Shown one piece after another: positions 19,383 to 23,582 of a DNA stretch of 64,000 nt (its first letter is position 1; every line of letters starts with the position of its first letter). Origin of the DNA: Flavobacteriaceae bacterium YJPT1-3. Its GTDB lineage: Bacteria; Bacteroidota; Bacteroidia; Flavobacteriales; Flavobacteriaceae. Location: the NCBI GenBank assembly GCA_029866965.1, contig CP123444.1, positions 1,033,501 to 1,097,500 on the forward strand. Direction: 5' to 3'. Both the position numbers and the translations under genes were made by a program. Under the pieces are notes generated by a model. The model searched no databases. It was not told the DNA's origin and saw nothing but the letters and a program-made list of their open reading frames with translations.

Positions 19383-20375
19383 ATGGCAAAAATTGGAGAT
19401 ATTGATGTCGGGGAATTCCCTCTGCTATTAGCCCCCATGGAAGACGTGAGCGATCCGCCTTTCCGCGCCTTGTGTAAAGAACAGGGAGCCGATGTGGTGT
19501 ACACCGAATTCATCTCTTCAGAAGGCTTGATTCGCGACGCCGCTAAAAGCGTCATGAAGCTGGACATTTATGAAAAAGAGCGCCCCGTAGGGATTCAAAT
19601 CTTTGGCGCCAATCTCGACTCTATGCTGAAAAGTGTAGAAATCGTTGAGGCCTCCGGCCCGGATATTATTGATATTAACTTTGGTTGTCCGGTGAAGAAG
19701 GTGGTGAGTAAGGGTGCCGGTGCCGGGATTTTAAAAGACATCGACCTTATGGTCAAATTGACCGAAGCCATGGTCAAGCATACCCACTTGCCGGTCACGG
19801 TCAAGACCCGTTTAGGCTGGGATCACGACTCCATCAAAATTGTAGAAGTGGCTGAACGGCTTCAGGATGTCGGCTGTAAAGCCATTGCGATTCATGGGCG
19901 TACCCGGGCCCAAATGTACAAGGGAGACGCCGACTGGGGCCCCATTGCTGAGGTCAAGAACAACCCTAGAATGCATATTCCGGTTTTTGGGAATGGGGAC
20001 GTTAATAGTCCGGAGCGGGCTGTGGAAATGCGCGATCAATACGGTTTGGACGGAGCGATGATTGGCCGTGCCAGCATTGGCTACCCCTGGTTTTTCAATG
20101 AGGTGAAGCATTACTTCAAGACCGGAGAACACGCCAGTCCGCCTACGCTTGAAGAGCGGGTGAAGGTAGCCAAAAGGCACCTGGAGATGTCCATTGCCTG
20201 GAAAGGCGAGAAGCTCGGTATTTACGAAACCCGACGTCACTACACCAATTACTTCAAAGGCATTCCTCACTTTAAGGAATACCGAACTAAAATGGTGACC
20301 AGCGAAGATATAGAGGCCCTTTACAGCACTTTTGACGAAGTATTGGAGCAGTTTGCGGGCTTTGAGTTTGCCTGA
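19383..20375 (+). CDS. dusB: tRNA-dihydrouridine synthase
   Basis: FMN-dependent enzyme that reduces uridine to dihydrouridine in the D-loop of tRNA with NADPH. 330 aa from MAKIGDIDVG (the open frame starts 9 nt earlier at a TTG). Motifs: LAPMEDVSDPPFR (16-28), DINFGCPVKKVVSKGAGA (97-114) with the catalytic Cys102, VTVKTRLGW, IHGRTRAQMYKG and the FMN-phosphate site GNGDVNSPE...GAMIGRASIG. Best fit is the DusB-type group that Bacteroidota carry. It is convergent with, and 1 bp from, the FtsX-family gene, with no terminator between them. Confidence 0.93.
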   Translation: MAKIGDIDVGEFPLLLAPMEDVSDPPFRALCKEQGADVVYTEFISSEGLIRDAAKSVMKLDIYEKERPVGIQIFGANLDSMLKSVEIVEASGPDIIDINFGCPVKKVVSKGAGAGILKDIDLMVKLTEAMVKHTHLPVTVKTRLGWDHDSIKIVEVAERLQDVGCKAIAIHGRTRAQMYKGDADWGPIAEVKNNPRMHIPVFGNGDVNSPERAVEMRDQYGLDGAMIGRASIGYPWFFNEVKHYFKTGEHASPPTLEERVKVAKRHLEMSIAWKGEKLGIYETRRHYTNYFKGIPHFKEYRTKMVTSEDIEALYSTFDEVLEQFAGFEFA

Positions 20376-22050: not shown

Positions 22051-22461
22051 ATGAATAAGATCGAACATATTGGGATTGCTGTCGAAAATTTGGAAGACGC
22101 TAATGCGTTGTATACACAATTGCTGGGAGCGGAACCTTATAAAGAAGAAGAGGTGGCTTCAGAGCGGGTTAGGACTTCTTTTTTTCGCTCTGGACCCAAT
22201 AAAATCGAATTGCTGCAAGCCACCCATCAAGAAAGCGCCATCGCGAAATACATCAGTAAATACGGGCCCGGCGTACACCACGTCGCGTTTTCGGTAGGTG
22301 ATATAAAAGCCGAGATGAAGCGGTTGGCAGAGGCGGGTTTTCGTTTGCTCAATGAAGAACCCAAACGGGGCGCCGACAATAAGTGGGTTGCTTTCGTGCA
22401 TCCTAAATCGGCCGGCGGTGTGCTGGTTGAGCTCTGTCAAGAGATTGCGGAAACGAAGTAA
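22051..22461 (+). CDS. mce: Methylmalonyl-CoA epimerase
   Basis: Converts (S)- to (R)-methylmalonyl-CoA, linking propionyl-CoA metabolism and succinyl-CoA. 136 aa VOC-fold protein, usual length. Motifs: KIEHIGIAVENLEDA (3-17, metal His6), KIELLQA with a metal Glu (about 48-54), PGVHHVAFSVGDI with His (about 72-84), and the C-terminal GVLVELCQE with a metal Glu. It is divergent from rbfA. Only a few nt after the stop lies the TTTG of a promoter that appears to drive the tRNA region. Confidence 0.93.
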   Translation: MNKIEHIGIAVENLEDANALYTQLLGAEPYKEEEVASERVRTSFFRSGPNKIELLQATHQESAIAKYISKYGPGVHHVAFSVGDIKAEMKRLAEAGFRLLNEEPKRGADNKWVAFVHPKSAGGVLVELCQEIAETK

Positions 22462-22540: not shown

Positions 22541-22881
22541 CAACGGTCCTATACCTGCCCACCTAGCGGTAGGTAGGCGGGGCTCAGTTGGTTACCTGCC
22601 TACCTGATGTTAGTCAGGCAGGGAGCACCTAATTGATACGAGAAGGAGTATGTTTGTATACGTAATTCGAAGCGATCAAGATCAGCGCCTTTACGTTGGG
22701 ATGACGGGTGATGTAGAGCGGAGTTTGATGGAGCATAATGCTGGAAGAACTCGAAGCACTAAGGGATATCGTCCCTGGAGGATGCTTCACATAGAGGAAT
22801 ATCCTGACCGAGAATCTGCCAGGAAAAGAGAAAAGTATCTCAAGAGTGGATTTGGCAAGTATTGGTTGAATAAAAAATATC
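22541..22881 (+). repeat. 341-bp direct repeat, unit 1 (GIY-YIG element)
   Basis: First of two adjacent 341-bp units that differ by only four substitutions by eye. Each begins CAACGGTCCTATA, the same bases that open the intact tRNA at 23223, then carries a tRNA 5' fragment interrupted by two 28-bp palindromes, then a GIY-YIG ORF. Period is exact: CAACGG starts at 22541, 22882 and 23223. Confidence 0.95.
22545..22630 (+). pseudogene. tRNA(CAT) 5' fragment interrupted by two palindromes (unit 1)
   Basis: Three blocks match the first 30 nt of the tRNA at 23227: GGTCCTATA (22545-22553, nt 1-9), GCTCAGTTGGTTA (22582-22594, nt 10-22) and GAGCACCT (22623-22630, nt 23-30). Between them sit two 28-nt hairpins, 22554-22581 (arms CCTGCCCACCT / AGGTAGGCGGG, one mismatch and a G:T pair) and 22595-22622 (arms CCTGCCT / AGGCAGG). 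The match stops inside the anticodon stem. It cannot fold as a tRNA. Confidence 0.85.
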
Positions 22882-22907
22882 CAACGGTCCTATACCTGCC
22901 CACCTAG
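22650..22907 (+). CDS. Small GIY-YIG nuclease, copy 1
   Basis: 85-aa single-domain GIY-YIG protein: VYVIRS (3-8) and LYVGMT (14-19) are the two motif strands, followed by MEHNAGRTRSTKGYRPW with the catalytic Arg region and ESARKREKYLKSG with the conserved Glu, i.e. the UvrC-N/YhbQ-like type. The ORF ends TVLYLPT because it reads through the CGGTCCTATA of the next tRNA-like start into the palindrome. It differs from copy 2 at ERS versus KRR and ESA versus EFA. Purine-rich AGAAGGAG precedes the ATG, unusual for this genome but perhaps too close to act. Such ORFs are known to sit against tRNA genes in Bacteroidota; their role is unproven. Confidence 0.75.
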   Translation: MFVYVIRSDQDQRLYVGMTGDVERSLMEHNAGRTRSTKGYRPWRMLHIEEYPDRESARKREKYLKSGFGKYWLNKKYPTVLYLPT

Positions 22908-23222
22908 CGGTAGGTAGGCGGGGCTCAGTTGGTTACCTGCCTAACTGATGTTAGTCAGGCAGGGAGCACCTAATTGATACGAGAAGGAGTATGTTTGTAT
23001 ACGTAATTCGAAGCGATCAAGATCAGCGCCTTTACGTTGGGATGACGGGTGATGTAAAGCGGCGTTTGATGGAGCATAATGCTGGAAGAACTCGAAGCAC
23101 TAAGGGATATCGTCCCTGGAGGATGCTTCACATAGAGGAATATCCTGACCGAGAATTTGCCAGGAAAAGAGAAAAGTATCTCAAGAGTGGATTTGGCAAG
23201 TATTGGTTGAATAAAAAATATC
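22882..23222 (+). repeat. 341-bp direct repeat, unit 2 (GIY-YIG element)
   Basis: Second unit, abutting unit 1 on the left and the intact tRNA on the right. Substitutions seen relative to unit 1: one in the second palindrome (C to A), two in the codons for ERS/KRR and one giving Ser/Phe. Confidence 0.95.
22886..22971 (+). pseudogene. tRNA(CAT) 5' fragment interrupted by two palindromes (unit 2)
   Basis: Same structure as at 22545: tRNA blocks at 22886-22894, 22923-22935 and 22964-22971, with 28-nt hairpins at 22895-22922 and 22936-22963. In this copy the second hairpin has extra pairing (CCTGCCTaACT / AGTcAGGCAGG). Confidence 0.85.
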
Positions 23223-23236
23223 CAACGGTCCTATAG
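22991..23236 (+). CDS. Small GIY-YIG nuclease, copy 2
   Basis: 81 aa, nearly identical to copy 1 (VYVIRS, LYVGMT, RKREKYLKSG all present). Its stop codon TAG (23234-23236) lies inside the first ten nucleotides of the intact tRNA, so the ORF and the tRNA overlap by 10 bp and the last residues VL are encoded by tRNA sequence. The version KRRLMEHN restores the basic residue usual in this family, where copy 1 has ERSLMEHN, so copy 2 is the better candidate for an active enzyme. Confidence 0.78.
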   Translation: MFVYVIRSDQDQRLYVGMTGDVKRRLMEHNAGRTRSTKGYRPWRMLHIEEYPDREFARKREKYLKSGFGKYWLNKKYPTVL

Positions 23237-23300
23237 CTCAGTTGGTTAGAGCACCTGACTCATAATCAGGTGGTCCCTGGTTCGAGCCCAGGTGGGACCA
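23227..23300 (+). tRNA. tRNA with CAT anticodon (elongator Met or Ile2)
   Basis: 74 nt with a complete cloverleaf: acceptor GGTCCTA / TGGGACC, D arm GCTC-loop-GAGC, anticodon stem CCTGA / TCAGG around loop CTCATAA, T arm CCTGG-TTCGAGC-CCAGG, discriminator A. CCA is not encoded. The CAT anticodon fits elongator Met or lysidine-modified Ile2; the acceptor differs from initiator tRNA. A terminator follows at once. Its normal promoter appears displaced by two 341-bp elements. Confidence 0.93.
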
Positions 23301-23311
23301 CATCACTCAGA

Positions 23312-23339
23312 AAACCCAGGCTGCAAAGCCTGGGTTTTT
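23312..23339 (+). terminator. Rho-independent terminator of the tRNA
   Basis: AAACCCAGGCT (23312-23322), GCAA loop, AGCCTGGGTTT (23327-23337), then T. Starts 11 nt after the tRNA end. Confidence 0.88.
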
Positions 23340-23410
23340 CATTTTCGGAAAAAAGTCAGATTCATCTGAGCTTATTACTACTAATGGCCAGCGCACCGTC
23401 TGGCTCCTCA

Positions 23411-23439
23411 CTACACTAAATCCACTGGATTTAGTGTAG
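23411..23439. repeat. 13-bp perfect inverted repeat
   Basis: CTACACTAAATCC (23411-23423), 3-nt spacer, GGATTTAGTGTAG (23427-23439). No T-run follows, so it is not a typical terminator. It lies in the 190-bp stretch between the two copies of the tRNA 3' flank. Confidence 0.85.
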
Positions 23440-23535
23440 ACGCTCGGCCCTTATTTGCAGCCGAGGTCATTCTCTGGTCGCTTCCGACCTAGGAGGAAGC
23501 AACCCAGGGTTATGTTTTTAAATTTTGAATCTTAA

Positions 23536-23582
23536 ACCACATCACTCAGAAAACCCAGGTTGTAGAGCCTGGGTTTTTCATT
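23536..23582 (+). repeat. Second copy of the tRNA 3' end plus terminator
   Basis: 47 nt matching 23297-23343 with three substitutions: ACCA of the tRNA 3' end, CATCACTCAG, then a hairpin AAACCCAGG / CCTGGGTTT with a T-run (terminator 23551-23578). The tRNA body before it is missing. A relic of a second tRNA copy or of a past duplication. Confidence 0.8.

Follow-up and report, generated by a model that had tools for sequence, protein, structure and literature searches.

Two tandem 341-bp units, each comprising the broken 5′ part of a tRNA gene and an ORF for a small GIY-YIG nuclease, precede an intact tRNA(CAT) gene in the genome of Flavobacteriaceae bacterium YJPT1-3. From sequence comparison across related bacteria, we consider it probable that these units are selfish elements of the homing type, each rebuilding the gene end that its insertion disrupts. 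The nuclease gene lies within what is one tRNA gene in relatives, the displaced outer part is found as a relic beside the native neighbor gene, and a second copy of the displaced part, joined to the ORF, completes the intact tRNA. In a mirror form of the arrangement it is the 3′ part that is displaced. The host keeps a working tRNA beside a broken, hairpin-studded leftover, and this recurs at many tRNAs in related bacteria. If our reading is correct, bacterial chromosomes harbor homing elements that need no intron to persist in tRNA genes, since they bring the missing half of the gene along.

The tRNA(CAT) locus

The window, by which we mean the whole 64,000-nt stretch of DNA that was analyzed, contains two head-to-tail direct repeats at a spacing of exactly 341 bp (Table 1), which differ at 4 of 341 positions (99% identity over 300 nt of direct repeat). 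Within each unit, nt 1-30 of the tRNA are interrupted by two 28-bp palindromes, one between nt 9 and 10 and the other between nt 22 and 23, and the GIY-YIG ORF comes after nt 30. This layout had been described in an initial annotation made from the sequence alone, and our analysis confirms it: the relic aligned to the tRNA with a score of 41, compared with at most 24 in 100 shuffled versions, and the stop codon of ORF copy 2 corresponds in the sequence to U8-A9-G10 of the intact tRNA. ORF copy 1 continues into the relic of the next unit. The same annotation placed the end of the copied portion in the anticodon stem. This holds for the exact match, which ends at nt 30; however, the alignment extends to nt 38 with three mismatches, so the tRNA copy may have reached the anticodon loop. 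The intact tRNA scored 72.6 bits with Rfam and was labeled Met by ARAGORN; judging by its GACTCATAATC anticodon arm, we take it to resemble tRNA-Ile2. At the gathering threshold, Rfam matched only this tRNA between window positions 20000 and 26000, with no group I intron RNA, and the 341-bp unit holds the GIY-YIG ORF only, with no integrase and no other long ORF on the same strand. A T-arm relic suspected in window positions 23344-23535 scored 15, compared with 25 for shuffled sequences, and was discarded.

Table 1. Features at the tRNA(CAT) gene, in window coordinates.
Feature	Position	Strand	Basis
Neighbor gene used for the bare-site comparison	22051..22461	+	ORF list
Unit 1 (outer): tRNA 5′ relic, two palindromes, GIY-YIG ORF	22541..22881	+	direct repeat
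Unit 1 tRNA relic: nt 1-9, 10-22, 23-30, with two inserts between	22545..22630	+	alignment
Unit 1 palindrome (28 bp), tRNA nt 9/10	22554..22581	+	alignment
Unit 1 palindrome (28 bp), tRNA nt 22/23; interspersed CCTGCC..GGCAGG family	22595..22622	+	alignment, pattern match
GIY-YIG ORF copy 1; Ser at conserved Arg25 position	22650..22907	+	ORF list, PF01541
Unit 2 (inner)	22882..23222	+	direct repeat
Unit 2 tRNA relic, split as in unit 1	22886..22971	+	alignment
Unit 2 palindrome, tRNA nt 9/10	22895..22922	+	alignment
Unit 2 palindrome, tRNA nt 22/23	22936..22963	+	alignment, pattern match
GIY-YIG ORF copy 2; conserved residues kept; stop at tRNA nt 8-10	22991..23236	+	ORF list, PF01541
Intact tRNA(CAT), taken to be the restored gene	23227..23300	+	tRNA detection, Rfam
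Terminator-like hairpin 3′ of the tRNA	23311..23338	+	repeat analysis
47-nt copy: last 5 nt of the tRNA plus terminator	23536..23582	+	repeat, 94% identity

Both ORFs match PF01541 (E-values of 1.5e-15 for copy 1 and 2.2e-17 for copy 2; bit scores of 57.6 and 63.5, compared with a curated cut-off of 22.6), and the nuclease is a single GIY-YIG domain of about 80 residues. The Tyr, Tyr, Arg, and Glu residues whose catalytic roles we take from I-TevI are kept in 75/75, 76/76, 76/76, and 76/76 family rows, respectively, when one unit per array is used and window copy 2 is among the 76. In the outer copy 1, the residue that is Arg in all 76 rows and in the inner copy 2 is Ser instead, and three of the four differences between the window units change the protein. 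The inner copy thus looks active, while the outer copy looks inactivated.

Element-free sites and occurrence at other genes

We compared element-free and occupied tRNA sites between species. We looked in 60 genomes of the family for the gene upstream of the units, which presumably encodes a methylmalonyl-CoA epimerase-like protein; it turned up in 50, and the best 30 loci were compared. A tRNA with anticodon CAT lies downstream of this gene on the same strand in 27 of the 30, including the window. The distance between the two genes is 769 nt in the window genome, compared with 53-95 nt in 22 of 26 others and 130, 157, 166, and 218 nt in the remaining four; the excess over 53-95 nt is explained by two units of 341 bp. 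A GIY-YIG domain is present at 2 of the 27 loci and absent from 25, the second occupied locus being that of genome G010, which has two units of the mirror form downstream of the tRNA. At tRNA-Arg(TCG), whose neighbor gene we take to be YqeY-like, 30 of 59 loci were compared and 29 have the tRNA. Here the distance is 633 nt in the window genome; among the 28 others it is 12-100 nt in 25 and 141 nt in one, and the two genomes with distances of 365 and 357 nt have one nuclease unit each; the domain occurs at 4 of the 29 loci, leaving 25 without. Looking in relatives for the same tRNA with zero, one, or two units, as proposed in the initial annotation, gave bare sites in most, and one-unit genomes were seen at Arg(TCG). 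A few of the nuclease-free orthologous sites carry relics that lack an ORF.

The host genome itself (3.16 Mb, one contig) has nine PF01541 matches and 40 places that match the Rfam tRNA model. The anatomy of the window is repeated at tRNA-Arg(TCG) with two units and at tRNA-Leu(CAA) with one, and tRNA-Asn has the mirror order of tRNA, ORF, and relic. A 47-nt segment comprising the last 5 nt of the window tRNA(CAT) and its terminator recurs further downstream, and is possibly the trace of a 3′-type insertion at the same tRNA gene.

We then assessed the arrangement in a survey of at least 111 places in the family and at least 69 loci in the phylum together with five neighbor-gene loci, which yielded 176 GIY-YIG arrays in 171 loci among the matches listed. 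With two duplicate loci included, 81 of the 176 arrays among the matches listed have a tRNA no more than 160 bp away, and nuclease and tRNA are on one strand in 86 of 86 contacts. Two to four domains are found in 23 of the 81 tRNA-linked arrays. After removal of duplicates there are at least 78 tRNA-linked loci, four of them in the host genome, from 53 genera and 14 families and spanning at least 26 tRNA types by anticodon, so that the search for units at other tRNAs, also suggested in the initial annotation, was positive. Linkage to a tRNA was seen in 57 of 69 phylum loci compared with 20 of 99 family loci (among the matches listed), although 57/69 is not an unbiased rate because the phylum loci are the best matches to the window protein. 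The tRNA-contact detector missed at least one locus, L065, which is of the 5′ type by inspection.

In the 5′ type, where the tRNA follows the ORF, a relic of the same tRNA precedes the ORF in 34 of 37 loci, and in the 3′ type, where the tRNA comes before the ORF, such a relic follows the ORF in 38 of 42; seven of the 79 tRNA contacts have no relic (all among the matches listed). Annotated tRNAs were masked for this test, in which a relic had to score above 200 shuffled versions as well as above a sample of up to 20 tRNAs with other isotypes, and the duplicate loci L154 and L166 were left out of the relic counts and of the trees described below. On the outer side of the tRNA, which served as a control, the shuffle test was positive in 4 of 36 loci of the 5′ type and 13 of 41 of the 3′ type; some tRNAs have relics on both sides or are placed in tRNA clusters. 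Restored tRNA halves and the corresponding relics frequently have the same sequence. At one locus (L057:1759-1835, minus strand; 1729-1805 in nuclease orientation) ARAGORN called a tRNA-SeC; we read the sequence as a Val-tRNA relic with its anticodon arm swapped for another hairpin, indicating that such relics can mislead tRNA annotation.

Related nucleases are also found in genes other than those for tRNAs. In four genera (L030, L032, L056, and L070) the nuclease lies inside sugar-nucleotide epimerase genes at one junction, after the GGAGF codons. The relic still has a start codon and N-terminus of its own, after which come the ORF and then a different N-terminus joined to the remainder of the gene; as the N-termini on the two sides of the element are unlike, these genes look hybrid. 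One of the four, in genome G054, has a stop codon within the nuclease frame. At L216 (1118-1810), the order is tmRNA, a GIY-YIG ORF directly after it, and then the final 38 nt of the tmRNA once more, a 3′ relic split at the T-loop by a 20-nt hairpin-like insert (score of 66, compared with 31 for shuffles). No tmRNA relic was found at L074 and L007, where the ORFs lie a few hundred bp 3′ of the tmRNA (scores of 22 and 20, below the best shuffles). The view with which we started, that insertion restores a tRNA 5′ half, is well supported by the bare sites, the recurrence at other tRNAs, and the isotype-tracking lineages reported below, but it is too narrow: the mirror form restores the 3′ half, and related elements restore a protein-gene start or a tmRNA end. 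Units at sites unrelated to tRNA had been named as evidence against a tRNA-targeting element, and the four epimerase loci are of this kind; in our reading, non-tRNA units may represent other targets of the same strategy.

Nuclease lineages and relic palindromes

On a tree of 74 tRNA-linked nucleases the isotype label changes 24 times, compared with 43-54 times in 300 shuffles. The host-family label gave 35 changes (40-48 in shuffles), so it too has signal on this tree, and the 5′/3′ form label gave 15 (19-31). In this first tree a few 3′-type rows reached 1-2 residues into the tRNA; with domains trimmed to exclude any tRNA-encoded residue, the isotype label changes 23 times (44-54) and the host-family label 35 times (40-48). 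Neither 74-row tree includes the short rows or the two loci at which both types occur; a larger tree took 170 arrays. In the latter, the Leu, Cys, Ala, Ser, and Arg nuclease clusters mix hosts. One isotype may form several clusters, and 5′ and 3′ forms co-occur in one cluster. That the lineages track isotype is the strongest sign that the nuclease itself selects its target.

We propose that the nuclease would recognize its own tRNA isotype and cut the element-free gene, after which repair of the break would copy the ORF and the adjoining gene part from the donor. Because a functional tRNA would be rebuilt by this repair, the host would survive. Tandem units may arise through unequal recombination between the repeats, and palindromes would later settle at fixed sites of the relic, perhaps disrupting the leftover target or limiting clean excision. 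However, an intact tRNA gene, once rebuilt, would be expected to become a target in its turn, which counts against the homing model.

Inserts of at least 12 nt in the relics are self-pairing in 63 of 75 cases, compared with 652 of 1,500 shuffled versions. They fall at D-loop, anticodon-loop, and T-loop sites, with 21 of the 75 at nt 21-24 of 5′-type relics (16 of these 21 being CCYGYC..GG) and 13 at the T-loop TTC/GA. The relic inner end lies 6-30 nt past the insert in 31 5′-type loci and 7-62 nt past it in 19 3′-type loci; inner ends scatter rather than pointing to a single cut site. The earlier suggestion of a cut near the anticodon stays conjectural, the inserts marking all three loops. In the host genome CCTGCC..GGCAGG occurs at 28 separate places (41 partly nested matches; one for the reversed control), seven of which fall in tRNA relics. 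The palindromes perhaps disrupt the target site, protect against clean excision, or act as a working hairpin, and as seemingly mobile sequences they pose a clear puzzle. A double insert recurs in Ser and Leu relics of different hosts (L195, L183, L188, L196, and L204), consisting of hairpin-TAAA, a short tRNA stretch, and then mostly (G)TTTA-hairpin, the second insert of L183 having TTCA. At L185 and L224 the palindrome at the same position differs between units of one array while the flanks are alike, and palindromes therefore seem to be exchanged.

These inserts also bear on an alternative that we regard as unlikely, namely that a nuclease without an added DNA-binding domain recognizes hairpins or cloverleaf-like DNA, the palindromes being part of the recognition or strand-transfer machinery, much as REP hairpins serve REP-associated transposases. 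Structure-targeting of this sort would fit the recurrence of inserts at the same loop positions in unrelated tRNAs, their self-pairing, and the distances between insert and relic inner end, as well as a weak sequence similarity of the nuclease to SLX1 (E-value of 0.0076 or worse). The isotype-specific lineages, however, imply sequence recognition, the epimerase targets are protein genes, and 22 of 72 relics have no insert of at least 12 nt. In addition, UPF0213 proteins match the nuclease better than SLX1 does, the nearest solved sequences being 1zg2 (E-value of 4.5e-5) and 1ywl (5.8e-5).

Other origins and comparison with known systems

It is very unlikely, in our judgment, that we are looking at ordinary tandem tRNA duplications in which one copy decayed with palindromes and a nuclease gene landed between the copies by chance. 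tRNA clusters and repeated relics do occur, as do relics with no ORF. Palindrome-split relics of the latter kind lie beside intact tRNAs in three relatives (G007, G050, and G042), and in G007 (L119) two 5′ relics with different D-loop palindromes stand directly before the intact tRNA(CAT). The host genome has ORF-less palindrome-split relics at Thr(GGT), Gly(GCC), and Leu(TAG) and weaker traces of 12-20 nt at four more tRNAs, and no GIY-YIG domain was found around the ORF-less relics of host and relatives in the stretches examined. The initial annotation had listed such split relics, too, as an argument against a tRNA-targeting element. They indicate that relics can form or persist without an adjoining nuclease gene and are only partly explained by the element model; they may be eroded elements, ORF-less derivatives, or scars of repair after nuclease cutting in trans. 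Against duplication, the relics are one-sided: the 5′ relic starts with nt 1 in 33 of 34 loci, the 3′ relic reaches the last nt in 29 of 38, and no 3′ half lies between the ORF and the intact tRNA in the three fully read 5′-type loci of the host genome. The ORF family, its strand, and its position moreover recur across 14 families and follow isotype.

More improbable still is a shrunken tRNA-targeted integrative element with an integrase-restored tRNA end and a partial attachment copy left behind, since, although integration at tRNA 3′ ends with restoration of the end is standard for integrative elements and resembles the 3′ type, the 341-bp unit has space for the nuclease ORF and little more, 5′-type and 3′-type loci occur in similar numbers, and the catalytic residues of the nuclease are conserved.

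By analogy, the best reading of the tRNA units as homing-type elements is that they would be a bacterial counterpart of the mORFs of fungal mitochondria. The accessible text on mORFs describes the replacement of gene ends in Allomyces atp6 and in Glomus atp6, atp9, cox2, and nad3, one of the four Glomus cases being GIY-YIG and the others LAGLIDADG (PMC3630166). There, as here, a gene interrupted by an endonuclease ORF is made whole by an end that the element brings with it, and the native end is left (PMC3630166). Those cases, as described in that text, concern mitochondrial protein genes and C-terminal replacement, whereas ours concern bacterial chromosomal tRNA genes at either end; by the same comparison, the 80-residue nuclease, the tandem arrays, and the relic palindromes are found only here, and our epimerase cases restore an N-terminus. 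A second parallel is the phage protein SegB, a free-standing GIY-YIG homing endonuclease adjoining tRNA genes that, in the accessible part of its description, has its cleavage sites within tRNA genes and causes segmental amplification (PMC13096335). Its motif as given there, RAWTSGAAC, looks like the tRNA T-loop consensus when reverse-complemented, the site of 13 of our relic inserts. SegB differs in being phage-borne and free-standing and in a reported association with tRNAs that shows no isotype preference, whereas the lineages here follow isotype, and half-gene relics are not mentioned in that part of its description (PMC13096335).

Phages and plasmids gave distant matches only (11 and 1 records, respectively), none of which spans 80% of the query. 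Five loci lie in viral contigs, one of them adjoining a tRNA with a relic alignment of 15, not above the 25 of shuffles, and one scan of genome contigs returned a single weak locus that has no tRNA. The UPF0213 proteins resemble our nuclease in having a single GIY-YIG domain and equal size, and 1zg2 and 1ywl were deposited as hypothetical proteins; to our knowledge, a tRNA-relic arrangement is no part of their description. In the literature searched, which included few subscription papers and no preprints, no prior description of these bacterial elements was found. We can only tentatively suggest a wider reading, in which a phylum-wide class of minimal elements (an 80-residue GIY-YIG nuclease plus half a host gene) comprises isotype-specific lineages invading tRNA and tmRNA genes from either end, with mobile palindromes at fixed loop positions of the relic as an integral working part, be it as target mark, anti-excision lock, or strand-transfer hairpin; the hairpin-coupled gene invasion that forms part of this suggestion had no described bacterial counterpart in that search.

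Homing-type elements of the kind we favor could account for small GIY-YIG ORFs beside tRNAs, for partial tRNAs, and for contig ends at such arrays. The gene beside each element would tell which isotype its small nuclease targets, and this natural set would lend itself to direct tests of site recognition by a lone GIY-YIG domain.

A different association was seen away from tRNAs. For 60 GIY-YIG loci with no ARAGORN tRNA, Rfam at the gathering threshold returned one tmRNA, two Flavo-1, and one trp leader. Many of these 60 ORFs have direct repeats of an interspersed type on both sides (among the matches listed), and the repeat-flanked ORFs sit on other branches of the nuclease tree. L015, L029, L033, L052, and others form a second large group of small GIY-YIG ORFs among interspersed repeats, for example GTCATTCTGAACGAAGTGAAGAATCT, for which a REP-like partnership is possible.
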